Below, piece after piece: positions 3 through 15,999 of a stretch of DNA of 64,000 nucleotides. The stretch is from Exiguobacterium acetylicum. Lineage in GTDB: Bacteria; Bacillota; Bacilli; Exiguobacteriales; Exiguobacteriaceae. Under the pieces are notes generated by a model, which did not search any database, had not been told where the DNA came from, and was given only the letters and a program-made list of their open reading frames with translations. Numbering within the stretch: position 1 is the first letter of the stretch; each line of letters opens with the position of its first letter. The translations under genes were made by a program, and so were the position numbers. Location: the NCBI RefSeq assembly GCF_019890935.1, contig NZ_CP082333.1:1266001-1330000 (forward strand). Reading direction: 5' to 3'.

Positions 3-1664
3 TTAGCAGCTTGCGTCAAGCATTTTGCGGCTTACGGTGCCGCTGAAGGTGGTCGTGATTACAATACGGTTGATATGTCGGATCGTGAATTACGAGAGTT
101 TTATTTACCGGCTTATCTACGGGCAATCGAAGCGGGTGCCCGACTCATCATGACAAGCTTCAACGTCGTTGATGGTGTTCCCGCAACAGCTAGTACGTAT
201 CTGTTACGTCAAATTCTTCGAAAAGAGTGGGAGTTTGACGGGGTCACGATTTCGGATTGGTCTTCTATTAAGGAATTAATCCAGCATGGTGTCGCGGGTT
301 CGCTTGCTGAAGCTGGAGAAAAAGGAATCAAGGCGGGCGTCGATATCGATATGATGTCAGGTGCTTACTTAAATCATTTGGAACAACAGATTGATGATCA
401 AGTCGTTTCGATGGACTTATTAGACGAAGCAGTACGCAGAATACTTATGTTAAAGCAAGATCTTGGGTTGTTTGAAAATCCTTATCGTGGCATTGATCCT
501 GAACTTGAGAAAAGAGTCCACTTATCTGAAGGTCATCGGAATACAGCACGGCGTTTAGCTGAAAAAAGTTGTGTCTTACTGAAAAATAATCAAGTCCTGC
601 CATTAGCAGACGATCAGCGGATCGCGTTGATTGGACCTTTTGCTGCTTCAACGGATGTACTTGGTCCATGGGCAGGCAACGGAAAACGTGAAGAAGCGGT
701 TTCCATTCGAGAGGCGTTTGATGAAGCGAACATTGATTATGTTTTTGCAGAAGGATCAACGATTGATACGGAAATTGACTGGGATCAGGCGATGGAAGTA
801 GCGGCGCAAGCAGATGTGATTCTTATAGCTTTAGGTGAAGCGTCTTGGATGAGTGGAGAAGCCGGAAGTCGAACGGACATCCGTTTGCCGAAAACACAAC
901 GCGATGGATTGGCAAGACTTGCGACACTTGGAAAGCCGATCGTGACCGTGCTATTCAACGGGCGACCACTCGATCTTCGAGATGTCGTTAATCATTCCGA
1001 TGCAGTGCTTGAAGCATGGTATCCGGGAACAGAGTCAGGACGAGCGATTCACCGTTTATTATATGGTCACGTGATTCCTTCTGGAAAACTAACGATTTCA
1101 TTTCCGTATCATGTCGGTCAGTTGCCATTACGTTACGATACCTTACCGACGGGGCGACCGATGACGATCGAAGGCGCTGATCCACGCTATACAAGCAAAT
1201 ACCTGGACGCTCCAAATGAAGCGCTATTTCCATTTGGTTTTGGATTAAGTTATAGCGATTTTACCTATACGCAGTTAAGACTATATGAGCAGCCGCAGGG
1301 AACTACATGGGAAGCATCCGTTATTGTTACGAACGATGGCGCATTAGATGCGGAAGAAATCGTTCAATGGTATATGCAAGATCCAGTTGCTGACGTGTCA
1401 CGTCCCTTACGTCAATTAAAAGGATATGAACGCGTTCTTGTGAAAGCAGGTTCCAGTCGAGAAGTGACATTCCGTATCGATGCTTCGATGCTAATGTATC
1501 AACATCCGGATGGTTCGGTTAAAGCGGATGCTGGTGAATTCATTCTCTATGTTGGTACGGATAGTACATGTGCATTACATGAAAAATTTTGGTTGAAACA
1601 GACCGTTGAAAAGGGGCAATTTGATGAACACATTAACGACCGTTCCACATCTACGACACGATGA
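3..1664 (+). CDS. GH3 family beta-glucosidase (5' end outside window)
   Basis: The frame is open from the left edge, so the N-terminus is missing. Visible are the GH3 KHF-AYG segment with the following GGRDYN, the SDW motif carrying the nucleophile Asp (codon 255-257), the alpha/beta sandwich domain (CVLLKNN, ALIGPFA) and a C-terminal fibronectin III-like domain (VIVTNDG, RPLRQLKGYERV). No signal peptide can be judged. The enzyme should hydrolyse beta-glucosides from the non-reducing end. In Listeria innocua a GH3 enzyme next to a 1,2-beta-oligoglucan phosphorylase acts on sophorose-type sugars; the same neighbour here suggests that substrate (inference). The end overlaps the next gene by about 40 bases, pointing to co-transcription. 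Confidence 0.9.
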   Translation, partial: LAACVKHFAAYGAAEGGRDYNTVDMSDRELREFYLPAYLRAIEAGARLIMTSFNVVDGVPATASTYLLRQILRKEWEFDGVTISDWSSIKELIQHGVAGSLAEAGEKGIKAGVDIDMMSGAYLNHLEQQIDDQVVSMDLLDEAVRRILMLKQDLGLFENPYRGIDPELEKRVHLSEGHRNTARRLAEKSCVLLKNNQVLPLADDQRIALIGPFAASTDVLGPWAGNGKREEAVSIREAFDEANIDYVFAEGSTIDTEIDWDQAMEVAAQADVILIALGEASWMSGEAGSRTDIRLPKTQRDGLARLATLGKPIVTVLFNGRPLDLRDVVNHSDAVLEAWYPGTESGRAIHRLLYGHVIPSGKLTISFPYHVGQLPLRYDTLPTGRPMTIEGADPRYTSKYLDAPNEALFPFGFGLSYSDFTYTQLRLYEQPQGTTWEASVIVTNDGALDAEEIVQWYMQDPVADVSRPLRQLKGYERVLVKAGSSREVTFRIDASMLMYQHPDGSVKADAGEFILYVGTDSTCALHEKFWLKQTVEKGQFDEHINDRSTSTTR

Positions 1665-4600
1665 ATTTAATGTGACACTAACTGAAGGCGGCGACATTCG
1701 TCAAATCCGTTACCAAAATATCATGATTAATCAATTGATTCATCATCCATTTGATGAATCCTTGATGAATGTATATGTTCGTCATGGTTCCAGTGTGGCC
1801 TTACCGTTACTTGGTATCCATTCGCCTAGTAAACTAGCAATATCTGAGCGTACGATCAGCTGGAAAGGTGACTACGAAACATTCGGATACGAGGTCGTCG
1901 CAAGTCTTCACACGACTGGAATGCATTTTAAAGTCTCACTCACTGGGGAAGGAGAATTTGACGTAACCTATGCACAGGATTTAGGGCTGGCTGACGAAGC
2001 CGGTGTACGTACGAATGAGGCATATATGGCACAGTACATTGACTACGTCGCGACCGAACATGGGATATTGGCTCGACAAAACCAGCGACAGTCGACGGGC
2101 TTTCCGAGCGTTGCGATTCTTTCGCATGACCGAATCGAAGAGTTTGCGACGGATGGTTTCGATGTGTATGGTGCGTCATTTCGGCAAACGAATGTAGCAG
2201 AGGGATTAAATGCACACTTACCCTCTCGAATAAATCAGTATGAGTTCGCATTACCGACGATTCGAACAGCTGTCAAAGAATCAGCTGGAGAGCTATCTTT
2301 CCAATTTGAGCTACGGTTCATTCCTTCGATGGAAGAAGCACTTGATGAACAATCGATTGATCAATTTATACCTTTATATGAGCGTGAGGAGCAACGGAAG
2401 GAACATCACCGTACGGCTTTCTTACAAACACCAAAGACGATTGTCGGGAATACAGCGACGAAACAACAACTCGACGTTTTGTATCCGGAACGGTTGCTTG
2501 AAGAATGGGAAGGAACACAGTTATTGTCCTTCTTTACACCTAATGGTCATCATGTCGTTCTAAAAGAAAAGGAACTTCTTGTTGAACGTAGTCATGCAAC
2601 CATCTTATTAAATGCGGGAAGTTTAGCGCCAACAGAAAAGAAATTGGCGACAACAGTCCATATGAATGGTGTCTTCAATTCGCACATCGTATATGGGAAT
2701 ACGAATTACAACAAGTGGATGTCGAACGTCAGAAATCCTTTGAACATCCCTAAAACGTCTGGGCAACGCATATACATCGAGCAAAAGGAAGCCTATCAAT
2801 TATTAGCGTTACCGTCGATTTTTGAAATGGGATGGAACGAAGTGATCTGGTATTACTTCTTAGATGACGAGACGATTGAAGTCCGAACATCAATTGGTGC
2901 TGAGCGACCTGTGCTTGAGACGACTGTTAAGACGCGACATCCGCGTGCGATGAAAATCAGTCAGCAAGTGACGATGCATACACAAGAATATGATGTGCCG
3001 TTTCAAATGGAACAGATCGGAACACGCCTTCATTTTACGGCAACAAAAGAATCATTGAGTAAACGGATTCTACCTGATTTGACATACACGCTTGAAATGG
3101 ATCAGCCTTTTTCAACGGGCTCCACATCTGAATGGTTAACTCAGCCAATCGTAGACGATTTGGTGTGGTTATCTGTCGGAGCGACCGATCATCTTGTCAT
3201 GAGAATGGGAGCAGGAATGCAGTGTGAATTCAATGCTGACGAAGAACGGAAGTCCTTCAATCAATGGAAGGCTGCTTATCGAAAAAACCTCAAATTTGAA
3301 GACGTCTGGCAGGACGCGAATGCTCTACAGTTTCAAGTAGACTGGTACATCCAAAACATGCGGATCCATTACCAATCACCGCACGGCTTAGAGCAATATG
3401 GAGGTGCTGCGTGGGGAACACGCGACGTATCGCAAGGCCCGATGGAATTTTTACTGGCGTTCGGTCATTTTGAAGAAGCTCGCGCATTACTGCTTCAAAT
3501 TTTTTCACATCAATTCGAGGCAGGACATTGGCCACAATGGTTCATGTTTGATGAATATGCTGGTATCCAGCAGGAGGATAGTCATGGTGATGTGATCGTC
3601 TGGCCACTGAAGGCATGCGCGGATTATCTTCAGAAAACACACGATTGGGCGTGTCTCGATGAACTACTTCCATATCGAACAAAGACCGGTCAGGAAACAC
3701 TAAAACAATCGCTCATGCATCATGTGGAACGAGCGTGTGCACGGATTGAAAAGGATTTCGTACCGAACAGTGTCTTTTCCGCATACGGCGGAGGCGATTG
3801 GGACGATACGTTACAACCAGCAGATGATGCGTTAAAGAAAAAATTAATCAGTACTTGGACGGTAGCATTGACATTCCAAACATTCCGTACGTTAGCAAAC
3901 GAGTTACCACAATCGTCATTAAGCATACGATTAGCGGAACTAACTACTACCATCGAACAGTCCTTCCAGTCAGACATGATTCTGGACGGGGTCATCCCTG
4001 GATTTTTACGAGTCGAAGAAGATGGATATCATCCGATGATTCATCCCTCAGATGATGGACTACCAATGAAATATCGATTGTTACCCTTGACCCGTAGTAT
4101 CATCGGAGAACTCGTTACACCAGAACAAGCTATGCAAAACTTAAAGATCATTGAAGAACATTTAAAGTTCCCGGACGGTGTGCGTTTGATGGATCGCCCA
4201 GCACAATATCGTGGTGGTGTGAGTCGTCATTTCATGCGGGCAGAACAAGCAGCTAATGTCGGACGTGAAATTGGACTGCAATACGTGCATGCCCATATTC
4301 GTTACATTGAAGCACTGGCGAAAATCGGAGCTGATGAAAAGAGCATAACGGAAGCATTTGACGTCATTAATCCTGTGGATCTAAAAGTGCCAAAAGCAGT
4401 CCGCCGTCAGAGAAATGCCTATTTCAGTAGCTCGGATGCTGCGTTTACGACGCGTTACGAAGCGCAAGAACGTTGGAACGAATTAAAAGAAGGTAAGATT
4501 CCGGTTAAAGGGGGATGGCGAATTTACTCGAGTGGACCAGGTATTTGGCTGAATCAATTAATGACGAATGTCTTAGGGATTCGAGAGCGTTCAGACGGGC

Positions 4601-4830
4601 TACTTCTTGATCCAGTCATAACCGGAACTATCCAGATGGACCTATTCGATATCCCTTGTCGTATTCGAATCACACGGGGGGGACAACGACGCATTTTATG
4701 GAATGGAGAACTGCTTAATCTTTCAAATCAATCCAATCGTTATCGTCAAGGTGGTTATCTATTACAACGTGAGGCGTTAAAAACGATCCTTCCAAGTGGA
4801 AACGAACTGCAAATCGAGCTTCCGCTCTAA
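1624..4830 (+). CDS. GH94 glycoside phosphorylase, 1,2-beta-oligoglucan phosphorylase-like
   Basis: About 1068 residues, matching the long GH94 subgroup that includes 1,2-beta-oligoglucan (sophoro-oligosaccharide) phosphorylase and far longer than cellobiose phosphorylase (about 800). An N-terminal beta-sandwich half is followed by an (alpha/alpha)6 barrel. W597-G-T-R-D601 and G723-G-D725-W-D-D728 match the GH94 active-site regions; the Asp of GGDW is expected to be the general acid. The reaction would be reversible phosphorolysis of a beta-glucan to alpha-glucose 1-phosphate in the cytoplasm. ATG 1624 is chosen over TTG 1606 because AAAAGGGG lies 7-8 bases upstream of it. Neighbouring GH3, binding protein and permeases fit import and breakdown of beta-1,2-gluco-oligosaccharides. 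Linkage is inferred from length and context. Confidence 0.8.
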   Translation: MNTLTTVPHLRHDEFNVTLTEGGDIRQIRYQNIMINQLIHHPFDESLMNVYVRHGSSVALPLLGIHSPSKLAISERTISWKGDYETFGYEVVASLHTTGMHFKVSLTGEGEFDVTYAQDLGLADEAGVRTNEAYMAQYIDYVATEHGILARQNQRQSTGFPSVAILSHDRIEEFATDGFDVYGASFRQTNVAEGLNAHLPSRINQYEFALPTIRTAVKESAGELSFQFELRFIPSMEEALDEQSIDQFIPLYEREEQRKEHHRTAFLQTPKTIVGNTATKQQLDVLYPERLLEEWEGTQLLSFFTPNGHHVVLKEKELLVERSHATILLNAGSLAPTEKKLATTVHMNGVFNSHIVYGNTNYNKWMSNVRNPLNIPKTSGQRIYIEQKEAYQLLALPSIFEMGWNEVIWYYFLDDETIEVRTSIGAERPVLETTVKTRHPRAMKISQQVTMHTQEYDVPFQMEQIGTRLHFTATKESLSKRILPDLTYTLEMDQPFSTGSTSEWLTQPIVDDLVWLSVGATDHLVMRMGAGMQCEFNADEERKSFNQWKAAYRKNLKFEDVWQDANALQFQVDWYIQNMRIHYQSPHGLEQYGGAAWGTRDVSQGPMEFLLAFGHFEEARALLLQIFSHQFEAGHWPQWFMFDEYAGIQQEDSHGDVIVWPLKACADYLQKTHDWACLDELLPYRTKTGQETLKQSLMHHVERACARIEKDFVPNSVFSAYGGGDWDDTLQPADDALKKKLISTWTVALTFQTFRTLANELPQSSLSIRLAELTTTIEQSFQSDMILDGVIPGFLRVEEDGYHPMIHPSDDGLPMKYRLLPLTRSIIGELVTPEQAMQNLKIIEEHLKFPDGVRLMDRPAQYRGGVSRHFMRAEQAANVGREIGLQYVHAHIRYIEALAKIGADEKSITEAFDVINPVDLKVPKAVRRQRNAYFSSSDAAFTTRYEAQERWNELKEGKIPVKGGWRIYSSGPGIWLNQLMTNVLGIRERSDGLLLDPVITGTIQMDLFDIPCRIRITRGGQRRILWNGELLNLSNQSNRYRQGGYLLQREALKTILPSGNELQIELPL

Positions 4831-4833
4831 AGT

Positions 4834-4868
4834 AGGACAGGATGACTTCATGGAAGTCGTCCTGTCCT
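4834..4868 (+). terminator. Intercistronic hairpin between GH94 and GH13 genes
   Basis: Arms 4834-4849 and 4853-4868 pair over 16 bases with one U-G wobble and a 3-base loop. There is no proper T-run behind it, so it is more likely an mRNA-stabilising or attenuating hairpin than a full terminator. Confidence 0.55.
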
Positions 4869-4896
4869 TTAGCATATGAGAAATGGAGTGAACGAC

Positions 4897-6423
4897 ATGA
4901 TAAAAAGTCATCGGCATCAAGTAGTCTACCATCTGTATCCGAAAAGTTTTCAAGATACGAATGGAGATGGAGTCGGAGATCTGAATGGTATTCGGAAACG
5001 ATTGGATTATCTGCAGAGGCTAGGGGTGGACATGATTTGGTTATGCCCAGTGTACACGTCACCTGGTTATGATCACGGGTATGACGTAGCGGATTATACT
5101 TCAATTGATCCTCTATACGGGTCTATGGACGAGATGGAAGCCTTGATTGACGAAGCGAGTCGGCATGATATCACGATCATGATGGATATAGTCGCGAATC
5201 ATACCTCATCCTGCCATGAATGGTTCATAGCATCCGAACATGATCCGGCCGGTCCATACGGCGACACATATATCTGGTGTGACGAACCGACAGAAGCGGA
5301 ATCTTTTTTTGGAGGTTCTGCTTGGACGTATTCGAGTATACGTCAGCAGTACTATTTCCACTCTTTCGCGAAGGAACAACCGGATCTTAATTGGGAACAG
5401 CCGGTAGTGGCAAAAGAATTTGCACGCATTCTATCGTTTTGGATTGAAAAAGGAGTTCGTGGATTCCGGTTTGATGTCATCGATTTAATCGGAAAACAAT
5501 TTCATCCGCATCGCTGGCTGAATTTTGAACGTGTACAGGAGGGATTACGAGAGATGTTGGCATCCGTTGATCGTTCAAATCTTCTTTTAGTCGGCGAAGC
5601 AGGTGGTCTATCTCCATCCGAAATTCGTCAACTTCAAGAAGAGGGATTACTTGATGTGGTGTTTAACTTTGAGACGTGCGCTCTTGACGAGGTGGCGGGT
5701 AAAAACAAATGGCACCTCCAATCGTTTGATCCAGCGGAATTAAAAAAGACGATTAAAAAATGGCAAGATGAGATGGAAGAAGACGGCTGGAACAGCTTGT
5801 TTTGGAACAATCATGATCAGCCTCGCGTTCTCTCTAGATGGTATGACGATGATATAAGAGCAGCAAAAATGCTTGTCTTGCTTCAGCTGACATTACGAGG
5901 AACCCCTTTCATTTATCAAGGAGATGAGATCGGAATGACGAACGGAAACATTCAGCAATCTGATTATCAGGATATCGAAACCCTCCGTTATTTACAGCAA
6001 GGTGGGGCGATACAGTCCGTTCAGCTGAAGGGTCGTGATCATGCACGTCTTCCGATGATGTGGACGAAAGAAGGTGGATTCTCGACAGGAACAGCTTGGT
6101 TACGGGGAATGACCGATGTTGATCGTAACGTCCACGATCAACAACTGGATGATGATAGTCTCCTGCAGGTGTATCGACGTTTACTTTCGATACGCAAGGC
6201 AGAACTCGCCTTATTGGATGGAGAAATGAAGTGGCATGAGACACCATCAACGATGATCGCATTTGATCGAATTCATGGCGAACAGTCCCTTCGTATTTTA
6301 GTTAATTTGTCGAATCACTCAATCCAACATCGAATAAAGACAGGCAAGACATTAATAGGTGTAGGGGACTACTGTGAAGAGGAACTCGGTCCTTACGCGG
6401 CGGTCCTATGCTATACTTTTTGA
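4897..6423 (+). CDS. GH13 alpha-glucosidase (oligo-1,6-glucosidase type)
   Basis: 508 residues with all GH13 regions: DIVANHT (region I), G189-F-R-F-D193 with the nucleophile, E234 in GEAGG as general acid, and H306-D307 in NNHDQPR. FFGGSAW and QPDLNWE are typical of subfamily 31, the oligo-1,6-glucosidase/dextran glucosidase group. Val after the nucleophile is the residue associated with alpha-1,6 rather than alpha-1,4 preference. No signal peptide, so it acts in the cytoplasm. ATG 4897 has GGAG 8 bases upstream; the earlier ATG 4876 has none. An alpha-glucosidase in an otherwise beta-glucan locus is unexpected. Trehalose-6-phosphate hydrolase is an alternative, but no matching PTS gene is nearby. 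Confidence 0.85.
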   Translation: MIKSHRHQVVYHLYPKSFQDTNGDGVGDLNGIRKRLDYLQRLGVDMIWLCPVYTSPGYDHGYDVADYTSIDPLYGSMDEMEALIDEASRHDITIMMDIVANHTSSCHEWFIASEHDPAGPYGDTYIWCDEPTEAESFFGGSAWTYSSIRQQYYFHSFAKEQPDLNWEQPVVAKEFARILSFWIEKGVRGFRFDVIDLIGKQFHPHRWLNFERVQEGLREMLASVDRSNLLLVGEAGGLSPSEIRQLQEEGLLDVVFNFETCALDEVAGKNKWHLQSFDPAELKKTIKKWQDEMEEDGWNSLFWNNHDQPRVLSRWYDDDIRAAKMLVLLQLTLRGTPFIYQGDEIGMTNGNIQQSDYQDIETLRYLQQGGAIQSVQLKGRDHARLPMMWTKEGGFSTGTAWLRGMTDVDRNVHDQQLDDDSLLQVYRRLLSIRKAELALLDGEMKWHETPSTMIAFDRIHGEQSLRILVNLSNHSIQHRIKTGKTLIGVGDYCEEELGPYAAVLCYTF

Positions 6424-6441
6424 AGAAGGAAGTGAAGTGAA

Positions 6442-7407
6442 ATGACAGGAATTAAGGATATTGCAAAGGCAGCAGGCGTCTCGATTTCGACCGTTTCCTA
6501 CGCGTTGAATGGGAGTACGAAAGTGACGGAAAAAACACGTCAACGTATCATGAAAATCGCGGAAGAGTTGAATTACATCCCGAATGCTGCTGCTAGAACG
6601 CTGAAGACTCGCAAGACGCATATCATCGGCGCCTTTCTAGGAGATTATTCAGGATCGTTTTACGGCGAATTATTAAAAGGAATTAATCATGAGTTGTCAG
6701 AAACGGGATATGAGCTGATCGTCTGTAATGGTCCGGAATCCCATCGCCTCATGACAGAACGGATCGTCGATGGCGGGATAATTTTAGGTCATCGTTTCAC
6801 CCAAGAACAAATTCTTGGATTTGCTGATCGGGGACATCCGCTGACGATTCTTGATCGAAACATGGATCATCCGAATATCAGTTGTGTACTACTTGATAAT
6901 GAGATGGGTATGAGACAAGCGATGCGAACGATAACCGCTACTAAACCACACTGTATTCATCTCGTCGATGGACCGGAAGAAAACCATGATGCTTTCGAAC
7001 GTCGCGCTGTCGTTCTAGAACAGGCCGACTTAGCGGGTATTGCGGTTCGTAGATGGGAAGGTGGATTTACGAAACGTTCTGGTATCCGTGCTGCAAGTGA
7101 AATCCTTGAAGAGTTAAAAGATGGGGATGCTATCGTTTGTTTGAATGATGATATGGCTCTCGGCGTATACGATGTCTTACAAAATACATCATTTCGAATT
7201 GGTCTCGATATATCACTGACGGGATTCGATAAGCTCGAGGTTACAAACTATACACAACCGAAAATCGCAAGCGTCAGTTATTCTAAGTTGGATTGGGGCA
7301 AGACCGCTGCTCGCGCGTTACTTCAATTGATTGATAAACGAGAGCGAACGAATGCGAAGATTGACTCAAAGTTCATCATCGCAGGATCCGTCCTCCAAAA
7401 GAAATAA
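6442..7407 (+). CDS. LacI/GalR family transcriptional regulator
   Basis: 321 residues. The N-terminal helix-turn-helix reads IKDIAKAAGVSISTVSYALN (about residues 4-23), followed by the hinge with YIPNAAARTL. The rest is the periplasmic-binding-protein-like effector domain, with the late DMALGVYDVL and LTGFDKLE segments of the family. It probably senses a sugar from the flanking catabolic genes and acts on the palindromes at 7454-7461 and 7517-7530 in front of the transporter genes. It starts 18 bases after the GH13 stop, so it belongs to the upstream transcription unit and may control its own expression. The effector is unknown. Confidence 0.9.
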   Translation: MTGIKDIAKAAGVSISTVSYALNGSTKVTEKTRQRIMKIAEELNYIPNAAARTLKTRKTHIIGAFLGDYSGSFYGELLKGINHELSETGYELIVCNGPESHRLMTERIVDGGIILGHRFTQEQILGFADRGHPLTILDRNMDHPNISCVLLDNEMGMRQAMRTITATKPHCIHLVDGPEENHDAFERRAVVLEQADLAGIAVRRWEGGFTKRSGIRAASEILEELKDGDAIVCLNDDMALGVYDVLQNTSFRIGLDISLTGFDKLEVTNYTQPKIASVSYSKLDWGKTAARALLQLIDKRERTNAKIDSKFIIAGSVLQKK

Positions 7408-7416
7408 AAAAATAGG

Positions 7417-7445
7417 TTGTAAGCGCATACATGTATGCTTATAAT
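7417..7445 (+). promoter_or_regulatory. Promoter with overlapping cre site for the sugar ABC transporter
   Basis: A -35 TTGTAA (7417-7422) and a -10 TATAAT (7440-7445) are 17 bases apart. The 15 bases at 7417-7431 match every fixed position of the CcpA cre consensus WTGNAANCGNWNNCA, so CcpA would cover the -35. A 14-bp perfect palindrome (7425-7438, GCATACATGTATGC) also lies in the spacer. Confidence 0.7.
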
Positions 7446-7452
7446 GTTTATA

Positions 7453-7530
7453 GAAACGTTTAACCTGTTGCTTTAAGGAAAAACCTTTGTATAAACATTA
7501 TTTTTTTGGAAAACAATCGAAACGTTTCGA
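7453..7530. promoter_or_regulatory. Two AAACGTTT palindromes, probable LacI-family operators
   Basis: The perfect 14-bp palindrome TCGAAACGTTTCGA occupies 7517-7530. A second copy of its AAACGTTT core with one-sided flank sits at 7454-7461. Central-CG palindromes of this kind are typical operators of LacI-family repressors, and a LacI gene ends just upstream. Centres are about 66 bases apart, compatible with looping. Confidence 0.65.
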
Positions 7531-7556
7531 TTAATACGAGATGGAGGAATGGAACC

Positions 7557-8789
7557 ATGAAAAAACTCGGACTAGCACTTGCGGTCAGCGCATTATCGGT
7601 ATCAACATTAGCAGCTTGTTCATCAGGATCCGGAGAAGATGACAAGACATTAACGGTATGGGCAATGGGTGAAGAAGGAAAGGCATTACCGAAGCTCGTG
7701 AAAGAATATGAAAAAGCAAACAAAGGTGTCAAAGTAAAGGTTCAGGCGATACCATGGGATACGGCACATGATAAATTGTTAACGGCGGTCGCTTCGAAGA
7801 ACGGACCAGATGTAGTTCAAATGGGTACATCTTGGATGCCAGAATTCGTTGAAGCAGGTGCTCTTTCAGACATGAAAAAATATGTAGAGAAATACCCGTC
7901 TCTTGCAAAAGATAATTTTTATGAGGGTTCTTATGAAACAGTTGAATTAAAAGATGGTGTTTATGGTGCGCCTTGGTACACAGATACACGAGTCCTTTAT
8001 TACCGAAAAGATGCATTGGCCGATGTAGGATATAAAAAAGCCCCAGAGACATGGGAAGAACTTGAGGATGCTTCGGCTAAGCTTGCAAAACGTCCAGGTG
8101 AGAATATGTATGGGATTACATTGGATACGAACGACCAGATGTTGAACTTCATGTTCGCACGTCAAAATGGATCTGACCTGTTGACGGAAGATAACAAACC
8201 GTTATTTAATCAGCCGGAATTCATTGAAAGTGCTGAATATTTAACGAGTTATTTCAAACAAAAGTATGCTCCGATTGATTTAGGGATGGATATCGTACAA
8301 GCATTTGGTGCAAAGGATCCGAATGTTCCAATGTTCATTAGTGGACCGTGGATGATCAATCTGATTAATGAACAGATGCCGGGTATTGAATCGAAGTGGG
8401 GGACTGCAGTCCTCCCCAAAAAAGAAAATAATATTTCATTCCTAGGTGGAGCGAACCTGAGTATCTTTGAAAGTAGTTCTAAAAAAGATCAAGCAGCGAA
8501 ATTCATCGCGTATATGAGTGAACCAGAAACACAAACAGCATGGATGGAAATGACAAAGTCGCTCCCTTCAACAAAAGAAGCATGGAAAAACGATACACTT
8601 CAAAATGACGAGAAACTGAAGACGTTTGGTGAACAAATGAAAGCTGCTCAACCGATGCCTCTCATCTCATCGTGGGAGAAAGTGTCACAAACCTACTTAC
8701 AGAGTTTCGAGAAAATGTACCGGGGCGATGCAGCGGTCGACAAAGAAGTGGAAGTTTTCCAAAAGAAAGCAGAAACCATCTTAAAATAA
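7557..8789 (+). CDS. ABC sugar transporter solute-binding lipoprotein
   Basis: 410 residues from ATG 7557, preceded by GGAGG at 7543-7547. The signal peptide ends in the lipobox L18-A-A-C21, so the mature protein is lipid-anchored outside the membrane. The fold is the family 1 extracellular solute-binding type (LTVWAMGEEGKALPKLVKEYE, then the DVVQMG and WYTDTRVLYYRKD segments). It delivers an oligosaccharide to the two permeases that follow. Its Listeria innocua counterpart beside a 1,2-beta-oligoglucan phosphorylase binds beta-1,2-gluco-oligosaccharides; that ligand is the best guess here. No ATPase gene lies in the cluster, so a shared MsmX-type ATPase is expected elsewhere. Confidence 0.92.
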   Translation: MKKLGLALAVSALSVSTLAACSSGSGEDDKTLTVWAMGEEGKALPKLVKEYEKANKGVKVKVQAIPWDTAHDKLLTAVASKNGPDVVQMGTSWMPEFVEAGALSDMKKYVEKYPSLAKDNFYEGSYETVELKDGVYGAPWYTDTRVLYYRKDALADVGYKKAPETWEELEDASAKLAKRPGENMYGITLDTNDQMLNFMFARQNGSDLLTEDNKPLFNQPEFIESAEYLTSYFKQKYAPIDLGMDIVQAFGAKDPNVPMFISGPWMINLINEQMPGIESKWGTAVLPKKENNISFLGGANLSIFESSSKKDQAAKFIAYMSEPETQTAWMEMTKSLPSTKEAWKNDTLQNDEKLKTFGEQMKAAQPMPLISSWEKVSQTYLQSFEKMYRGDAAVDKEVEVFQKKAETILK

Positions 8790-8823
8790 GCGGAGCGGAA
8801 GCTTCAAGGAAGGAGTCCTCTGA

Positions 8824-9711
8824 ATGAGACGGTTGCTCAACCATCAGGCGCCTTATCTGTTCATTGCACCGACCATCATTTTACTGTTTCTATTTTCGAT
8901 TACGCCGCTTTTCGTCGCCGTAGTAATGAGTTTTACGAACATGGATTTAGCGGGAATCGCGAACTATGCAAACATCGAATGGATCGGTATCTCAAATTAT
9001 CTTGAAATTTTTAAAGATGAGGTTTTCTTAAAGGCATTAACGAACACGGTCTTTTATGTCATCTTGGGTGTGCCGCTTGTCATTACACTTTCACTCTCCA
9101 TTGCCATTGCGATTAACTTTGGTCGAGGAAAAGTATTTGAATGGTTTCGTGTCGTCTTTTACATGCCGTCGATTACGAACGTCGTTGCAGTCGCCGTCGT
9201 TTGGGGATTCTTATTCAATCCCCAATATGGGCTCTTTAACTTTATCTTGAATGCAGTTCATTTGCCAGATGTTCCGTGGTTACAAGATCCACTTGTTGCA
9301 AAATTATCATTGATCCTATTAGCCTTATGGCGGGCTGTCGGAATCAACATGATTATCTTCCTTGCGGCATTACAGGGGATTCCAAGAACGTATTATGAAG
9401 CAGCTGCACTGGACGGTGCTAGTACGTTTCAGCAAATGTTTAAAATCACGATTCCGCTCTTGCGATATGCCATCTTCTTCGTCACGGTGACGACATTGAT
9501 TGGATGGATTCAATTTTTCGAGGAACCGTTCATAATGACAGAAGGTGGACCATTGAACTCAACGACATCATTGGCACTGTTCATCTATCAAAATGGTTTC
9601 CAACTGAGCAACTTTGGATATGCTGCTGCAGGATCCGTTGTCTTATTCGTTTTAATCATTACAGTCACATTGATTCAATTCCGCGTTCAAAAAAATGATA
9701 ATCCTTACTAA
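8824..9711 (+). CDS. ABC sugar transporter permease (MalF/UgpA type)
   Basis: 295 residues with six hydrophobic segments. The EAA loop that contacts the ATPase is EAAALDGASTFQQMFKITIP near residue 200. It forms the membrane channel with the next gene product and receives substrate from the upstream lipoprotein. GGAAGGAG lies ahead of ATG 8824, and the gap after the binding-protein gene is 34 bases, so the three genes form one unit. Sugar specificity is inferred from context only. Confidence 0.92.
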   Translation: MRRLLNHQAPYLFIAPTIILLFLFSITPLFVAVVMSFTNMDLAGIANYANIEWIGISNYLEIFKDEVFLKALTNTVFYVILGVPLVITLSLSIAIAINFGRGKVFEWFRVVFYMPSITNVVAVAVVWGFLFNPQYGLFNFILNAVHLPDVPWLQDPLVAKLSLILLALWRAVGINMIIFLAALQGIPRTYYEAAALDGASTFQQMFKITIPLLRYAIFFVTVTTLIGWIQFFEEPFIMTEGGPLNSTTSLALFIYQNGFQLSNFGYAAAGSVVLFVLIITVTLIQFRVQKNDNPY

Positions 9712-9729
9712 AGGAAGGGGGACGAGTCA

Positions 9730-10623
9730 ATGATTCCAAAAGAAAAACCCGTGGTTGTAACAGGCAAGGAAGCTCGATTTTCGCCAATCGCGAGTCCGGA
9801 GAAAAGACGAAAAAAGTTTACTTTTCAATGGGGTCTTGCAACGGTATTGACGTTACTAGGTCTTTGTTTTCTCTTACCGTTTTTTTGGATGATTCTTTCT
9901 TCTGTTAAAACGGATGCGGAAATATTAGCACTTCCGCTAACAATTTGGCCAAAGGAATTGACTTTTGAACATTACGTTAATTTATTCGTAAATTTAAACT
10001 TTTTAACCTATTTGAAAAACACACTTTTGATCGTATTAGCATCATTTTTTGGTCTACTCTTAACAGCGATGGCTGGTTATGGATTTGCCAAATTTCGTTT
10101 TAAAGGGAGTAAGTTGCTATTCATCGGAGTACTCGCCACGATGATGATTCCGGGGCAAGTAACGATGATCCCAGTCTATTTAATGCTTAATCAAATGGGA
10201 TTAACGAATACGATGACAGGAATCGTTTTACCTGGATTAGTTGGTGCGTTCGGCGTATTCCTATTTCGCCAATTCATGACGACGATTCCAGATGAGCTGC
10301 TAGAAGCATCTCGACTAGATGGAGCAAGCGAATGGCGAATTTTCTTCTCAATCGTTCTTCCGATGTCAAAACCTATTCTAGCGGTACAGGGAATTTTAAC
10401 ATTCATTGGAGCATGGAATAGTTTCTTATGGCCACTCATCATCGCGAATGACGAATCACTGTATACTCTATCTGTTGGCTTAGCGTTACTGCAGGGGCAG
10501 CATGGTGGGAATTACGGACTGCAAATGGCTGGAGCTACATTCATGGTCATCCCAATTATCATCATCTTCATGATTTTCCAAAAGTATATCATCGAAGGAT
10601 ACAATATTTCAGGTATGAAATAA
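9730..10623 (+). CDS. ABC sugar transporter permease (MalG/UgpE type)
   Basis: 297 residues. A charged N-terminal tail of about 35 residues precedes six membrane segments; the EAA loop reads EASRLDGASEWRIFFSIVLP. It pairs with the preceding permease, starting 18 bases after it with AAGGAAGGGGG as ribosome binding site. It is the last gene of the transporter unit, directly followed by a rho-independent terminator. Confidence 0.92.
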   Translation: MIPKEKPVVVTGKEARFSPIASPEKRRKKFTFQWGLATVLTLLGLCFLLPFFWMILSSVKTDAEILALPLTIWPKELTFEHYVNLFVNLNFLTYLKNTLLIVLASFFGLLLTAMAGYGFAKFRFKGSKLLFIGVLATMMIPGQVTMIPVYLMLNQMGLTNTMTGIVLPGLVGAFGVFLFRQFMTTIPDELLEASRLDGASEWRIFFSIVLPMSKPILAVQGILTFIGAWNSFLWPLIIANDESLYTLSVGLALLQGQHGGNYGLQMAGATFMVIPIIIIFMIFQKYIIEGYNISGMK

Positions 10624-10637
10624 GTATATGTTTTAAT

Positions 10638-10669
10638 CTCGCGTTCTCTTTTGAGATCGCGTTTTTTTG
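10638..10669 (+). terminator. Terminator of the sugar transporter unit
   Basis: CGCG and TCTC arms pair with GAGA and CGCG around a TTTT loop (10640-10661), followed by seven T. Confidence 0.75.
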
Positions 10670-10803
10670 TAAAAAATCGCTGAATAGTTCGTATGAAAAG
10701 ATTGCGCGTTACGTCCTCTATATAAAAGTTTTATTGATTCGAGAACAGAAAAAACGGGAAAATCTTGGACATGACTTTGAATTCAAGGAAAGAAGGAATA
10801 AAG

Positions 10804-11721
10804 ATGATTCATGTCGAGAACTTGACGAAGACGTACGATGGGAAGGATGTCGTCAAAGGCATCTCGTTCGATGTCGAGGCAGGAGAAATCTTTGCTTTTT
10901 TAGGACCGAACGGGGCAGGAAAGTCAACGACCGTCCAGATGCTGACAACGTTGATTCCGATTTCCGGTGGTCGAGCAACGATTCAAGAATTTGATGTCGT
11001 CAAACAGGAAAAACAAGTCCGTTTGCAAATTGGAGTTGCCTTGCAAGATACCGGCATCGATGAGGATTTGACCGGGCTTGAATTACTTGTCCTACAAGGA
11101 AAATTATTCGGATTAAGTCAGACGGAAGCAAAAATACGGGCAGAGGAATTGTTGCGACTCGTCGGACTCGATCAAGACGGCAAGCGTCGATCTGGCACTT
11201 ACTCCGGTGGGATGAAACGACGACTTGATCTCGCTTTGACGCTCGTCCATCAACCGACCGTTTTGTTTCTCGACGAACCAACAACCGGACTTGACCCGGC
11301 GAGTCGTCTGCAAATCTGGAACGAGGTCCGGCGACTGAACGAAGAGTTCGGAACGACGATCTTTTTGACGACTCAGTACTTGGAAGAAGCCGATCAGCTA
11401 GCCGATCGGATCGCGATCATCAATGAAGGGCAACTGATTGCCGAAGGGACGGCAGCTGAGCTGAAGGCAGCAAACGGAGAAGAGCGGATCGAATTGACAC
11501 TTGCGGAAAAAGAGGACGAACAAATCGTTTTAGAGACGTTTGCCGGTCGTCAGGAAAAAGACCGTCTCGTCATTCCTTCGCGGGGAACGGAGACACTGCG
11601 CGCGGTCGTCCGTTTTCTCGACGAACGGAAGATGGTTGCGACGTCACTGGTCGTCAAACAACCCTCACTTGATGATGTCTTCATTCGTTTGACCGGACAA
11701 GCTTATAAGGAGGAATCGTGA
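10804..11721 (+). CDS. ABC transporter ATP-binding protein (DrrA-like)
   Basis: 305 residues. Walker A is GPNGAGKST, the signature is SGGMKRRLDLA, Walker B is VLFLDEPTTGLDP, and a C-terminal extension of about 90 residues is typical of the DrrA/CcmA drug-exporter group. ATG 10804 has AGAAGGA upstream and begins the usual MIHVENLTKTY; the longer frame from 10765 adds residues the family lacks. The permease follows one base after the stop. Likely role is export of a lipophilic compound or drug; the substrate cannot be read from sequence. Confidence 0.92.
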   Translation: MIHVENLTKTYDGKDVVKGISFDVEAGEIFAFLGPNGAGKSTTVQMLTTLIPISGGRATIQEFDVVKQEKQVRLQIGVALQDTGIDEDLTGLELLVLQGKLFGLSQTEAKIRAEELLRLVGLDQDGKRRSGTYSGGMKRRLDLALTLVHQPTVLFLDEPTTGLDPASRLQIWNEVRRLNEEFGTTIFLTTQYLEEADQLADRIAIINEGQLIAEGTAAELKAANGEERIELTLAEKEDEQIVLETFAGRQEKDRLVIPSRGTETLRAVVRFLDERKMVATSLVVKQPSLDDVFIRLTGQAYKEES

Positions 11722-11722
11722 C

Positions 11723-12490
11723 ATGATTCGAGAAACGTGGTTTTTGATGCGGCGGAGTCTACTCGTCACGTTGCGTAATCCGTTTTCTTTCATTCCGAAC
11801 TTAATCATCAGTGTCTTTTTCCTGCTCGTCTACACGAGTGGTCTCTCCGGAATTTCAAATTTACCGCAGTTCGACGGCGTCGATTATTTGAACTTCATTT
11901 TGCCGGTCTCAATCGTCTCAGGTGCTGTTGGTGGAGCCGGGGGAGCGGGTCAAGCGCTCGTCAAGGATATCGAGAGTGGTTATTTCGCTCGTCTGTTGCT
12001 GACACCCGTCTCGCGAACAGCGATCGTCCTCGGACCAATGCTTGCCGGGATGCTGCAATTATTCGTTCAAACGTTACTGATCTTCGGGATGGCCTTTTTG
12101 CTTGGTCTATCGATTCCAGTCGGTGTCAGCGGCTTTTTCTTGACGATCTTACTCGCGCTTGGCTTTGGTCTCGCCTTTGCCGGTTACTCGGTCGGTGTCG
12201 CTTTGAAGACACGGAATGCGCAAGCGGCTCAAGCTGGAACGCTTCTGTTCTTCCCTTTGATTTTCCTGTCGACGACGTTTGTACCGAAAGACTTGATTGA
12301 AGCCGAATGGCTCAAGATTGCTGCGACGATCAATCCGACGACCTATATCATGGAAGGGATGCGTAGTGTGTTGACCCGTCCAGAAATCGATTGGTCGGTT
12401 TATTGGCAAGGTTTGATCGTCGCTGCTGTTCTTAGCATTGCGATGGTGATCTTTGCTGCGCTGAACGCACGCGGAGCATTGAAAAAATAG
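11723..12490 (+). CDS. ABC-2 type permease (DrrB-like)
   Basis: 255 residues with six hydrophobic segments and the ABC-2 architecture: a short cytosolic N-terminus, LRNPFSFIPN before the first helix, and the NPTTYIMEGMR segment before the last. It is the membrane partner of the ATPase one base upstream and is translated from AAGGAGG. Together the two would form a homodimeric export pump. No regulator or resistance gene is next to them that would name the substrate. Confidence 0.9.
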   Translation: MIRETWFLMRRSLLVTLRNPFSFIPNLIISVFFLLVYTSGLSGISNLPQFDGVDYLNFILPVSIVSGAVGGAGGAGQALVKDIESGYFARLLLTPVSRTAIVLGPMLAGMLQLFVQTLLIFGMAFLLGLSIPVGVSGFFLTILLALGFGLAFAGYSVGVALKTRNAQAAQAGTLLFFPLIFLSTTFVPKDLIEAEWLKIAATINPTTYIMEGMRSVLTRPEIDWSVYWQGLIVAAVLSIAMVIFAALNARGALKK

Positions 12491-12553
12491 GATATTCTTA
12501 TCCAATTTAAGGGTATACAGTTGAGGATTCGACGATTAAAGAGGAGGGGTTCA

Positions 12554-13324
12554 ATGAGGCGATATGCGCTATCACTTTTATTACTAGTAGGTCTCTTGGC
12601 TACTGTTCTTGTCTTGTATCAAATGACGTTTGACATCACAACGTCGATCCTTCATTTCTTATTGGTTCCCGTATTGATCATCATGACGCTCTTGAATGGA
12701 AGAAAAAATTTCTTGATATTGATCAGCTATGTTCTTATGATGGGTTTTCTCTATCTCATTTTATCGTGGTATAACGAAGCATCAAACGAGCAACAGTTGT
12801 CCTACATCGGACAACACCTCTTATCCTCAGTCGGTGTCTTTTTATACTGGTTGTTCTTACGGCAGTTACGGAGTGTGTTCGAAGAGAATGCATCGCTTCA
12901 AAAGCGGGTTGCTTTACTTGAAGGGTTCTCCGCGTCACCTCAATTGCTCTCTTACAGTGAATTTTTAGACCGAACGGATTTCTTGATTGCGGGAGCGAAT
13001 CGTCGTCAAGAACAAAATATGTTGCTTCATCTTCAGATTCCATACGCTAGTTTAAACAAGAAAACAATCATGCAACAGTTAACTGATGCTGGACTAAAGG
13101 TATTTCGTGCTCATTATGACGTCATGTCGCAACGAAACCGTCAGGAATTCATCATCTTTCTACAAAATACCGATCATAGTGGTGCGGAGATCGCATGGCA
13201 ACGTTATGAGAATGAACTCCGTCAACGCTTTACGGTACTTGATTTTCCGTTTCAGGTCGAAATTCTTCCTGTACGTTCATCTGTGGAAGAGACGTTGAAG
13301 CAACGGAAGGTGGTGGATCAATGA
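12554..13324 (+). CDS. Membrane protein with degenerate GGDEF domain (YdaK-like)
   Basis: 256 residues. Four membrane segments (about 4-22, 31-48, 52-71, 88-103) are followed by a short coiled linker and a GGDEF-like domain. The catalytic loop is R194-N-R-Q-E-F199, with only EF left of GGDEF, so cyclase activity is not expected. The inhibitory-site position aligned with RxxD reads A186-H-Y-D189 with an Arg one place earlier. Bacillus subtilis YdaK is a c-di-GMP receptor of this layout that controls the YdaM/YdaN exopolysaccharide synthase; the same role is inferred here from fold and from the GT2 gene overlapping by 4 bases. ATG 12554 is chosen for GAGGAGG just upstream. Confidence 0.7.
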   Translation: MRRYALSLLLLVGLLATVLVLYQMTFDITTSILHFLLVPVLIIMTLLNGRKNFLILISYVLMMGFLYLILSWYNEASNEQQLSYIGQHLLSSVGVFLYWLFLRQLRSVFEENASLQKRVALLEGFSASPQLLSYSEFLDRTDFLIAGANRRQEQNMLLHLQIPYASLNKKTIMQQLTDAGLKVFRAHYDVMSQRNRQEFIIFLQNTDHSGAEIAWQRYENELRQRFTVLDFPFQVEILPVRSSVEETLKQRKVVDQ

Positions 13325-14547
13325 ACCTCGTCTTGAACGTCATCATGGCGATTTTTTGGTTACTATTACTGTATTATTCTTATCTGACGATTGCCGGCAT
13401 TCTCGATCGCTATGGAAAAAAACAGCCGGTCACTTTAACAGAGTATCCATCTATCGCTATTCTGATCCCCGCACATAATGAAGGCATCGTCATGCGTCAA
13501 ACACTCGAGGCGATGATGGGGATCGAATATCCAGGGAAACTCGATGTATTTTTACTCGATGATCAGTCGCAGGATGAGACGCAAGAGATTGCTCTGGAAT
13601 TTACGACGATGTTCAGTCGAGTCCACTATATCCATGTCCCAAAAGGTGAACCAATCGGAAAATCACGTGTCCTAAACTATGGGCTATCGATCACGGATTC
13701 CGAGTACTTCTTAATTTTTGACGCGGACAATCAACCGAAAGCAGACACTGTGACACGACTCGTCGAACAAGCAATGACTCAAAAGAATGCGTGCGGAGCG
13801 GTTGGAATCGTCAAGACGATCAATGCAACGACGAACCTGCTGACGCGGATGATTGCGATCGAATTTCAAGTGTTTCAGCTGATCATGCAAAGTGGTCGCT
13901 GGAAAGCATTCAAGACGGGATCGTTAGCAGGGACGAACATGTTGTTAAAACGGGATGTCATCGAAGAGTTAGGTGGATATGATCCGTATGCACTGGCAGA
14001 GGATGCGGAATTGACGATGCGGATCACGGCACTCGGTTACACACTTCCTGTCGTCTACGAAGCGGAGACATGGGAACAAGAGCCGGAAACGATGAAAGTA
14101 TACATGAAGCAACGAACGCGTTGGATGCTTGGAAACATCTATTTATTAGAAAAATCACTTCGGACACGAGATTTTTGGAAAGGAAGCACGCTCGTCCATT
14201 CCTTGCAGCATATCATGACGTACCTCCTCTTCATCTTCTTGTTGTTAATCTCTGATATCGTTTTAATCCTTGGACTATTTGGTTATGCTTTCGATGAGGC
14301 GACGACGCCATTCATCATGTTTTGGTTCATGACGTATCTTGTCTATACGATCCAAATCTTAGCGGCGCAAGAACTCGAAGGAACTGCCACTCCGAAGAAT
14401 GTCCTCGTCGGGTTGATCATGTACTTTACCTACGCCCAATTATTCGTCATTCTTTTATTCCGCGGAATGTATGCATATCTCAAAAGTAAGGTACGCAAAG
14501 AGGTCATCGTCTGGGATAAGACGAAGCGCGTCAAGATTGAGTCATGA
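13321..14547 (+). CDS. Processive family 2 glycosyltransferase, membrane-bound
   Basis: 408 residues. One N-terminal membrane segment precedes a GT-A domain with DDQSQDE (80-86), the D134-A-D136 metal motif, the E227-D228 catalytic pair and Q264-R-T-R-W268, the QxxRW signature of cellulose/chitin/hyaluronan-type processive synthases. Three or four C-terminal helices form the pore. It probably polymerises and extrudes an exopolysaccharide. The ATGA overlaps with both neighbours make a tight operon with the degenerate GGDEF protein before it and the GH8-like hydrolase after it. No PilZ domain is visible, so control would come from the partner protein. Confidence 0.88.
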   Translation: MNLVLNVIMAIFWLLLLYYSYLTIAGILDRYGKKQPVTLTEYPSIAILIPAHNEGIVMRQTLEAMMGIEYPGKLDVFLLDDQSQDETQEIALEFTTMFSRVHYIHVPKGEPIGKSRVLNYGLSITDSEYFLIFDADNQPKADTVTRLVEQAMTQKNACGAVGIVKTINATTNLLTRMIAIEFQVFQLIMQSGRWKAFKTGSLAGTNMLLKRDVIEELGGYDPYALAEDAELTMRITALGYTLPVVYEAETWEQEPETMKVYMKQRTRWMLGNIYLLEKSLRTRDFWKGSTLVHSLQHIMTYLLFIFLLLISDIVLILGLFGYAFDEATTPFIMFWFMTYLVYTIQILAAQELEGTATPKNVLVGLIMYFTYAQLFVILLFRGMYAYLKSKVRKEVIVWDKTKRVKIES

Positions 14548-15509
14548 AAAAAGGACTAGGGATTGGTCTACTCATCATTTTGTTAGCGGGGGGAGTTTGG
14601 TATTACATGCAAAAACAAGAGGATGATATCGTTCAACAAGTAGAAGCGGACTATATGCAAGACGGTATCATTCGTGCTTATGATCGTTCAGATGCCCAAC
14701 GTCTGTCGGAGAGTCTGGGTCAGTATATGCAATATGTATTATTGATCGATGATGAAGAGCGATTCAAAGAACAAGTACAGATACTGAACAATCATTTTTT
14801 AGTTGAGCGCGGATCAGATGTATACATCAAATGGGAGTTGGGTGAGAAAACGGCAACGAATGCCTGGATTGACGACATTCGTATATCGGAAACGTTAATG
14901 AAAGCTGGCAAACAATTCAATGAACCGACCTATTCAAAGCTTGCGAGTCGAATCGAGACAACCTTACTCAAGCGGCAACGAATAAAAGGTAAAATCGTTG
15001 ACTTTTACGATTGGGATTTACAACAGGCGACGGATGTACTCCATTTGAACTATTTAGAACCACCAGCGCTGAAACGATTGAAATTACTCGATTTCGCAAA
15101 AGAAAGAGTGGCTCAAGCGAAACGAGAAGGTCCATTCACAGCGGAACTCTATTTTGCAAATCAAAATGAATCAAAGTGGGCAGATGACAAAGTCGTGAAT
15201 ATGATTGATCAAGTCTTGATTGAACGATTACGCGTAGGCGTGACCGGTGAATCAGACGCGTCTTTTCGATCGTTCATCTCTAAAGAATTGAAGAACGGGA
15301 AAATATACGCGCGTTACGACCGTTTAACAGCAACACCGACGATGAAAGACGAATCAAGCTCCGTCTATGCTTTACTCGTTCCTCTTTTGAACGGCGAAGA
15401 GCGTTCTTTCGTACTTAAGCGACTGCGTGAGATTGAGACGACGAATGCTAAAGAGACGCACGTGTTTGACGTGCTGAATAAAGCAGTCATTTTAAAAGAA
15501 TTTGAATAA
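14544..15509 (+). CDS. GH8-like glycoside hydrolase, membrane-anchored (YdaJ-like)
   Basis: 321 residues with an uncleaved N-terminal signal anchor (about 4-22). S55-E56-S-L-G-Q-Y-M matches the GH8 general-acid region SEGxGYxM, and A104-T-N-A-W-I-D110-D111 aligns with the ATDxDLDIA base region. It thus faces outside and probably trims the polymer made by the GT2 enzyme, as GH8 proteins do in bacterial cellulose and Listeria Pss systems. The match is distant and the substitution of GQ/GY residues leaves activity open. ATGA overlap with the synthase gene. Confidence 0.7.
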   Translation: MKKGLGIGLLIILLAGGVWYYMQKQEDDIVQQVEADYMQDGIIRAYDRSDAQRLSESLGQYMQYVLLIDDEERFKEQVQILNNHFLVERGSDVYIKWELGEKTATNAWIDDIRISETLMKAGKQFNEPTYSKLASRIETTLLKRQRIKGKIVDFYDWDLQQATDVLHLNYLEPPALKRLKLLDFAKERVAQAKREGPFTAELYFANQNESKWADDKVVNMIDQVLIERLRVGVTGESDASFRSFISKELKNGKIYARYDRLTATPTMKDESSSVYALLVPLLNGEERSFVLKRLREIETTNAKETHVFDVLNKAVILKEFE

Positions 15510-15512
15510 GAA

Positions 15513-15549
15513 AAAAGCTGGAACGGATTTTTTCCGCTTCCAGCTTTTA
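15513..15549. terminator. Bidirectional terminator between convergent units
   Basis: AAAAGCTGGAA-type arms around 15513-15528 and 15533-15548, with A-run and T-run flanks. It lies between the convergent exopolysaccharide operon and the asp23 operon. Confidence 0.75.
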
Positions 15550-15561
15550 GTTTGCTTGTGA

Positions 15562-15999
15562 TTACTTGATGTCACGTTTTTCTTCCTCTTCTTTCGACGA
15601 TTTACTTTTTGCGTCGAACTCAGAACGTGTCATGACATCTTCGACATGCATATTGATTTCGACGACATCGAGTCCTGTCATATCATGGACTGATTTTTTG
15701 ATTTTCGTTACAGCATCTTGGAAGATCGACGGGATGTTTTTGCCGTACTCGACGATGACTTTTAAGTCGAGTGCGACTTGTCGTTCGCCGACTTCCGCGT
15801 CAATGCCTTTTGTGATATCTTCCGTGCTCCGGAAACGATCTGTCAATCCACTCATGAAGCCACCGCTCATTGAGAGGATGCCTTTGACATCATTTGATGC
15901 GATACCGGCGATTTTTTTAATGACTTGATCTTCGAATGTGAGTTTGTTTTCGCGTACTACTTCGTTTTCGTTTTGTTTAGTGTTGATTTCGTTAGCCAT
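15562..15999 (-). CDS. Asp23/Gls24 family envelope stress protein
   Basis: 145 residues. The Asp23 core runs from LTFEDQVIKKIAGIASNDVKGILSM through VALDLKVIVEYG to GLDVVEINMHVEDV, with a charged C-terminal tail. In staphylococci Asp23 is an abundant membrane-associated protein tethered by AmaP. Here it is the third gene of amaP-DUF2273-asp23, in the same order as in staphylococci. AAGGAGAG precedes ATG 15999. Confidence 0.92.
   Translation of the reverse strand: MANEINTKQNENEVVRENKLTFEDQVIKKIAGIASNDVKGILSMSGGFMSGLTDRFRSTEDITKGIDAEVGERQVALDLKVIVEYGKNIPSIFQDAVTKIKKSVHDMTGLDVVEINMHVEDVMTRSEFDAKSKSSKEEEEKRDIK

Follow-up and report, generated by a model that had tools for sequence, protein, structure and literature searches.

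A window of 64,000 nucleotides from Exiguobacterium acetylicum (contig NZ_CP082333.1, positions 1,266,001 to 1,330,000; coordinates below are those of the window) carries three same-strand genes at 12554–15509, which encode a degenerate GGDEF membrane protein (K'), a family 2 glycosyltransferase (GT2) synthase and a hydrolase of glycoside hydrolase family 126 (GH126). We consider it probable that they specify a membrane exopolysaccharide (EPS) synthase in which K' acts as a switch, most likely bound by cyclic diguanylate (c-di-GMP), with trimming by the GH126 protein and without the DUF2334 and BcsB-like partners of related systems. The observations behind this reading are the gene order, the predicted folds, the conserved residues, the partner genes not found and the separate clade of the glycosyltransferase (GT). 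The K' gene (12554..13324, + strand, 256 amino acids) opens at ATG 12554 and stops at 13322–13324; it is followed by the GT2 gene (13321..14547, + strand, 408 amino acids) and the GH126, or PssZ-like, gene (14544..15509, + strand, 321 amino acids). All three reading frames are intact and neighbours are joined by 4-base ATGA overlaps at 13321 and 14544, in agreement with the three overlapping genes described in an initial annotation of the window.

The predicted structure of K' starts with four helices, three of which have strong hydropathy peaks while the fourth (78–125) continues into a degenerate GGDEF domain at about residues 126–256. The signature positions read R-N-R-Q-E-F, and by sequence and alignment NRQEF (13136..13150, + strand) stands at the GG(D/E)EF position. 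With K' alone, Pfam did not detect GGDEF, Pfam and NCBIfam gave chance-level matches, and a PDB sequence search gave no match. An alignment of 57 rows (the window protein, L009 and 55 of 66 references) was used for modeling; PF00990 matched 21 of the 57 members at E ≤ 0.1. When this alignment was searched as a profile against the PDB, the top six matches were GGDEF entries (best E 0.002) and the remaining rows were mostly chance matches to helical proteins. The AlphaFold2 model had a mean predicted confidence (pLDDT) of 92.4 and a predicted TM-score (pTM) of 0.64. VIA-align gave Z-scores of 11.8–14.9 among the 50 matches listed, all of which we take to be GGDEF proteins. The list is headed by 6khu (Z 14.9, root mean square deviation (rmsd) 2.8 over 123 residues); PleD (1w25) reached Z 12.3 with an rmsd of 2.8 over 124 residues. 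Judged by this model, K' is a GGDEF-fold membrane protein with a degenerate signature. The initial annotation had come to the same view from the letters RNRQEF, and the predicted structure, which superposes on GGDEF proteins rather than lacking their fold, bears it out.

The I-site region of K' reads F-R185-A-H-Y-D189 (R185 to D189, 13106..13120, + strand). Asp189 is correctly placed relative to the motif at the GG(D/E)EF position, but the Arg lies one residue early, four residues before the Asp where RxxD would have three. Instead of the RxxD five residues before the motif by which receptors are recognized, K' carries a re-spaced RxxxD. The spacing was followed in a K' alignment of 84 rows, 68 after those 90% identical or more had been dropped. 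The Arg is four before the Asp in 61 of the 68 (60 RxxxD, one RRxxD), three before it in 4, and 3 are otherwise different; the Asp is kept in 68/68 and directly preceded by Phe or Tyr in 63. Five of the seven exceptions are second K copies of Planococcus, the others being L026 and L074. Sixty K' were scored as immediate neighbours of a GT, and 58 of them have the shifted Arg; it is also present in the window K', L007 and L080, which our script did not score as adjacent to a GT. RxxD was found in 16/16 K proteins from operons of canonical layout in other Bacilli.

Two further arginines are kept. R150 (13001..13003, + strand) is Arg in 68/68 K' and 16/16 canonical K, where by alignment it is equivalent to the second Arg of an RxxR-like stretch, the putative secondary I-site of YdaK. 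R217 (13202..13204, + strand) corresponds by alignment to the third I-site Arg, R402 in PelD and R390 in PleD; it is Arg in 66/68 K', and in the 16 canonical K the position holds Arg in 7 and Lys in 9. The mean column identity of K' is 28%. Since RxxxD is near-invariant in the clade and R150 and R217 are kept, the I-site looks selected and re-spaced rather than abandoned. These alignments favor a cyclic-dinucleotide site that has been re-spaced and is still under selection over one that has been lost, and a simple loss of c-di-GMP binding was set aside as first choice on account of the family-wide conservation of the site. The initial annotation had noticed the early Arg and suggested that binding may be lost or changed: the one-residue shift is as it described and a changed site agrees with the family, while loss appears less supported given the kept arginines. 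Between R150 and D189, K' is shorter than canonical K (39–41 residues in 61/68 K' vs 46 in 15/16 canonical K). It has therefore lost some of the active-site half, which makes cyclase activity very unlikely.

As a separate observation, the second K copies of Planococcus at L028 12032–12805, L031 12035–12808, L035 12032–12805 and L041 12070–12780 have no adjacent GT and adjoin DUF2334 and GH126 genes. Their I-site either reads RxxD or lacks the Arg, and their domain is shorter, with 35 residues from R150 to D189.

Receptors of the same design are described in earlier reports. In Bacillus subtilis YdaK, EPS formation in vivo depends on the RxxD residues R202 and D205, and residues 157–160, an RxxR, are named as a putative secondary I-site (PMC5422440); Listeria PssE binds c-di-GMP with a Kd of 0.79 µM and is needed for EPS (PMC4125290); and PelD of Pseudomonas aeruginosa requires R402 along with R367 and D370 for binding (PMC8461298). 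The operon resembles ydaJKLMN in joining a degenerate GGDEF protein with four transmembrane helices, a GT2 and a glycoside hydrolase, and in its presumed I-site control. It differs in that YdaK has RxxD and SDERI where K' has RxxxD and NRQEF, in gene order (K-GT-J vs J-K-L-M-N), and in YdaL and YdaN, which are part of ydaJKLMN and were not found in the window's genome. This comparison was made through 17 operons of the same layout, the B. subtilis proteins themselves entering by description. Listeria monocytogenes pssA-E likewise includes an I-site receptor of the degenerate GGDEF type (PssE) and a GT2 (PssC); PssE has RxxD and DKDDA, unlike K' (PMC4125290), PssD is a BcsB orthologue and the pss gene order is another one. 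PelD shares four predicted transmembrane helices and a degenerate GGDEF receptor domain with K', with RxxD plus the third Arg, but it also has a GAF domain (PMC8461298). The window GT has its top NCBIfam match in the PgaC/IcaA poly-N-acetylglucosamine synthases; at 112 bits it stays far under the equivalog cut-off of 422, and no further ica/pga-like gene was recognized by reading among the adjacent open reading frames (ORFs). The pel operon is larger and its synthase is of another type. In the open-access full-text literature, which leaves most subscription papers outside, we found no description of a two- or three-gene K'-GT form and no dead GGDEF protein with an RxxxD I-site; the text matches for RxxxD together with c-di-GMP were one paper on PlzD of Vibrio and one on VfmE of Dickeya.

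The GT carries the features of a processive GT2, as had been proposed: two Pfam GT2 models matched it (E 1.1e-28 and 2.8e-24), and DD (80–81), DAD (134–136), ED (227–228) and QRTRW (264–268) correspond to the DD, DxD, ED and QxxRW motifs. Relatives were collected by a GT scan with one genome per species. Of 88 confirmed stretches the 80 best were kept, and in 74 of these 80 a GT exceeded the score limit, giving 75 close GT genes. Among the GT ORFs scored, QxxRW was present in 77/77, ED in 76/77 and DAD in 73/77, Exiguobacterium copies being counted repeatedly. The canonical comparison set came from 20 fetched stretches, of which 17 GTs and 16 K were used; the operons of these K follow the order J-K-L-M-N in 13 cases and a pss-like order in 3. 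Five of the 16 K (L164, L165, L166, L171 and L175) were read as stop-to-stop open frames; L170 had no K frame, and L172, L174 and L179 were left out. A further 20 stretches served for gene order only and enter no count, some of their K' and GT being hidden by longer overlapping ORFs.

The closest named relatives of the window GT are from Exiguobacterium (99% and 87% identity); the relatives compared from outside this genus are 52–64% identical, except L076 with 42%, and the 17 canonical GTs 33–39%. In a GT tree of 96 rows (midpoint root for drawing only; canonical group defined by layout, without B. subtilis YdaM and Listeria PssC), 17/17 canonical GTs came out as a single group (100/100). Outside it fall 72 'minimal' GTs, the window's among them; one of these, from the Dictyoglomota metagenome-assembled genome L076, is on the canonical side of the tree. 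K' lies directly upstream, ending within 150 bases of the GT start and on the same strand, in 73/75 related GT genes, mostly with a 4-base overlap. The two others are L050, which ends at a contig end, and L080 from Bacillus norwichensis, where a 467-amino-acid ORF at 6517–7920 (− strand), transposase-like by reading, interrupts the pair. GH126 is directly downstream in 33/75 and DUF2334 occurs somewhere in the stretch in 14/75. No YdaN-like gene was found in any of the 75 stretches, which cover up to 8 kb on each side and in some cases end at contig ends. Within the window's genus, K' is present in 4/19 genomes, the window's own included. Because the window GT is outside the canonical clade and the layout recurs in relatives, the operon is, by sequence, a separate clade with a recurring reduced layout and not a decayed ydaJKLMN.

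Some relatives have layouts of their own. K'-GT pairs labelled Arthrobacter beigongshangensis (L055) and Roseburia sp. (L064) branch among Sporosarcina and Bacillus, and these records are either mislabelled or contaminated assemblies or represent recent transfer. In Terribacillus (L014, 4810–7068), a 752-amino-acid cellulose-synthase-like GT, the C-terminal part of which looks PilZ-like by eye, stands just upstream of K'-GT; Virgibacillus L015 has the same layout with a GT of equal length. Indiicoccus L040 has K-GT-GH126-DUF2334 twice in tandem at 1519–11013, apparently a DUF2334-containing variant that has been duplicated. Three large genomes of genus g5 (L176–L178) carry a DUF2334-GT-BcsB-K operon with RxxD in the order of Listeria pssB-E.

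The partner genes were searched in the whole genome of the window (3.39 Mb, 3 contigs). No DUF2334 (YdaL) was found at E 1e-5 and no BcsB (PF03170) at E 0.01, and the B. subtilis controls were positive for both. Because two YdaN-like proteins of a sister genus, recognized by position and alignment, escape PF03170 (a pss-like one matches at 7e-41), a profile of 15 YdaN-like proteins was also used; its sole match in the genome covered 71 positions with E 0.023. Neither a second GH126 gene nor a second K' gene was found in this genome, and its other GT matches were weak (E 1.6e-8 and 2.7e-8, 29% identity). In the window's genus none of 19 genomes had a DUF2334 match at E 1e-20, and in the sister genus of the same family DUF2334 occurs in 6 genomes, three of which were fetched (L160–L162) and hold complete J-K-L-M-N operons. 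The absence of YdaL and YdaN noted in the initial annotation thus extends to the whole genome, and no complete operon elsewhere was found of which these genes might be paralogues. Its word 'minimal' applies to the partners not found, but it does not describe a loss peculiar to this genome, being the usual state of the clade.

The third gene had been called GH8-like. We reject this identity: the GH8 Pfam model PF01270 did not match the window protein, although two longer relatives from other operons gave weak matches, one just above the cut-off. A profile of 33 relatives matched Listeria PssZ (6r2m), the closest solved relative, at E 2.7e-92 and CPF_2247 (3ren) at E 1.2e-37. The model (pLDDT 95.4) superposes on PssZ with an rmsd of 1.5–1.8 Å over 299–301 columns (TM-scores 0.86 and 0.89). 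PssZ and CPF_2247 are GH126 in CAZy, PssZ having first been called GH8 (PMC7479077). E56, invariant in 33/33, aligns with Glu51 of PssZ (position counted in the 6r2m alignment), which PMC13363691 names as its proton donor, and D222 lies within a near-invariant MIDQ motif. The protein has one N-terminal hydrophobic helix. PssZ is described as degrading the Pss polymer (PMC11439720). Gene 3 codes for a GH126 protein of the PssZ group and, by analogy, a presumed exopolysaccharide hydrolase.

A link to c-di-GMP was also looked for in the genomes. The window's genome has 30 GGDEF and 15 EAL matches. Among 398 sampled Bacilli genomes, the same set, judging by shared handles, in the scans for K', DUF2334 and GGDEF, 31 matched K' and 22 were counted as K'-bearing (E 9.3e-38 or better); eight genus g5 matches (E 1.6e-14 to 3.9e-10) and G268 (E 1.6e-9, in an 824-amino-acid frame) were set aside. 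A GGDEF match at E ≤ 1e-25 was present in 22/22 K'-bearing genomes vs 310/376 others, which is weakly consistent with a c-di-GMP link. At 12/74 loci a protein with an EAL profile is encoded no more than 2 kb from the cluster, and the four of the 12 that were checked (L012, L025, L047 and L051) are all EAL by Pfam.

We favor the switched synthase because the GT2 has processive motifs, K' adjoins it in nearly all relatives and has a GGDEF fold with near-invariant I-site positions, because YdaK and PssE, of the same design, are c-di-GMP receptors and gene 3 is close to PssZ, and because of the EAL neighbours, the GGDEF and EAL matches of the genome and the GGDEF matches of all sampled K'-bearing genomes. 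Polymer synthesis, ligand, activation, chain export and trimming are what we infer from this. The GT2 protein would polymerize a sugar nucleotide and the chain would leave through the GT's own membrane helices. K' would adjoin the GT in the membrane, where a cyclic dinucleotide, most likely c-di-GMP, would turn the GT on through it, with R150, R185xxxD189 and R217 as putative ligand contacts in the dead GGDEF domain; this step is drawn by analogy with YdaK and PssE. Outside, anchored by its one helix, the GH126 protein may trim the polymer as PssZ does in Listeria, and the synthase would operate without DUF2334 and BcsB-like partners, unlike YdaJKLMN and PssA-E. The Pss polymer is given as ManNAc/Gal (PMC11439720) and a lectin result in B. 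subtilis suggests alpha-Gal and/or GalNAc (PMC13274460); neither composition carries over safely to the window GT.

Several points weigh against this reading. RxxxD is outside the RxxD definition, and both L074, without the Arg, and L026, with another spacing, adjoin a GT. The co-occurrence of GGDEF and K' is weak because a GGDEF match occurs in 83% of the sampled Bacilli in any case, the genomes are related, and the K'-bearing G050 and G254 have one match each. Seven of the 12 loci with EAL neighbours are Sporosarcina with the EAL gene on the opposite strand, and the EAL match at L076 scores low and is likewise on the opposite strand. Each of ydaL, ydaM and ydaN is reported to be essential for EPS in B. 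subtilis (PMC13274460), so a system without L and N may work differently.

An unlikely alternative, though the strongest of those considered, is that K' senses no nucleotide and that the GT needs its GGDEF domain as a structural co-polymerase or scaffold, the arginines holding a dimer or GT interface. The Arg out of the RxxD frame, the shortened active-site half and the blindness of Pfam to the domain in the window K' would suit such a role; it is, however, at the known ligand site that charged positions are conserved, whereas elsewhere the protein drifts, and EAL neighbours occur in several lineages. More doubtful is that K' binds another ligand, such as c-di-AMP, 3'3'-cGAMP or another guanine nucleotide, or c-di-GMP at another stoichiometry; for PssE two c-di-GMP per site are reported. 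The strict re-spacing with an aromatic residue before the Asp does resemble adaptation rather than decay, but the EAL neighbours and the GGDEF matches in every sampled K'-bearing genome speak for c-di-GMP. That the operon is the remnant of a ydaJKLMN which lost YdaL and YdaN in this lineage is hardly credible, for although the three sister-genus genomes fetched carry the full operon, the window GT is outside the canonical clade, the reduced layout recurs in relatives, the three frames are intact and their order is K-GT-J.

Around the operon, the longest ORF of the K' gene opens at TTG 12521, and AGAGGAGG lies directly 5' of ATG 12554; by direct reading, a ribosome-binding-site-like AGAGGAGGG is found at 12540..12548 (+ strand), 5' of this ATG. 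A strong hairpin with A-/T-rich ends at 15513..15548 (+ strand) is a likely terminator and separates the operon from the convergent gene 15562–15999. The region 15500–15560 folds at −22.4 kcal/mol (z −4.70; 0/200 shuffles equally low), and a terminator consensus scan found just a partial form of the hairpin, on the − strand. A scan for sigma-70-type promoters gave 8 vs 6.2 expected. The ABC transporter pair at 10765–12490 was rejected as part of the system, since among the loci compared it immediately precedes the cluster on its strand in those of Exiguobacterium alone. Some clusters have different ABC genes nearby, as in L067, where they are on the opposite strand.

Whether a dead GGDEF domain is a c-di-GMP receptor is predicted from the RxxD motif. 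In a clade of some 60 dereplicated proteins the Arg has moved by one while the remaining I-site positions are kept, and the RxxD rule would miss these proteins or call them non-binding; the odd RxxxD spacing recurs in relatives across Firmicutes and differs from the known receptor versions by one residue. It is possible, although we hold this only tentatively, that K' represents a distinct class of cyclic-dinucleotide receptor, R-x-x-(F/Y)-D, with altered geometry, stoichiometry or ligand, which evolved together with a two-gene K'-GT synthase that is self-sufficient, requires no BcsB-like or DUF2334 partners and has spread through Firmicutes. The K'-GT pair has the look of a reduced version of this kind of synthase; from it one would learn which of the five YdaJKLMN components polymer production and export really require.

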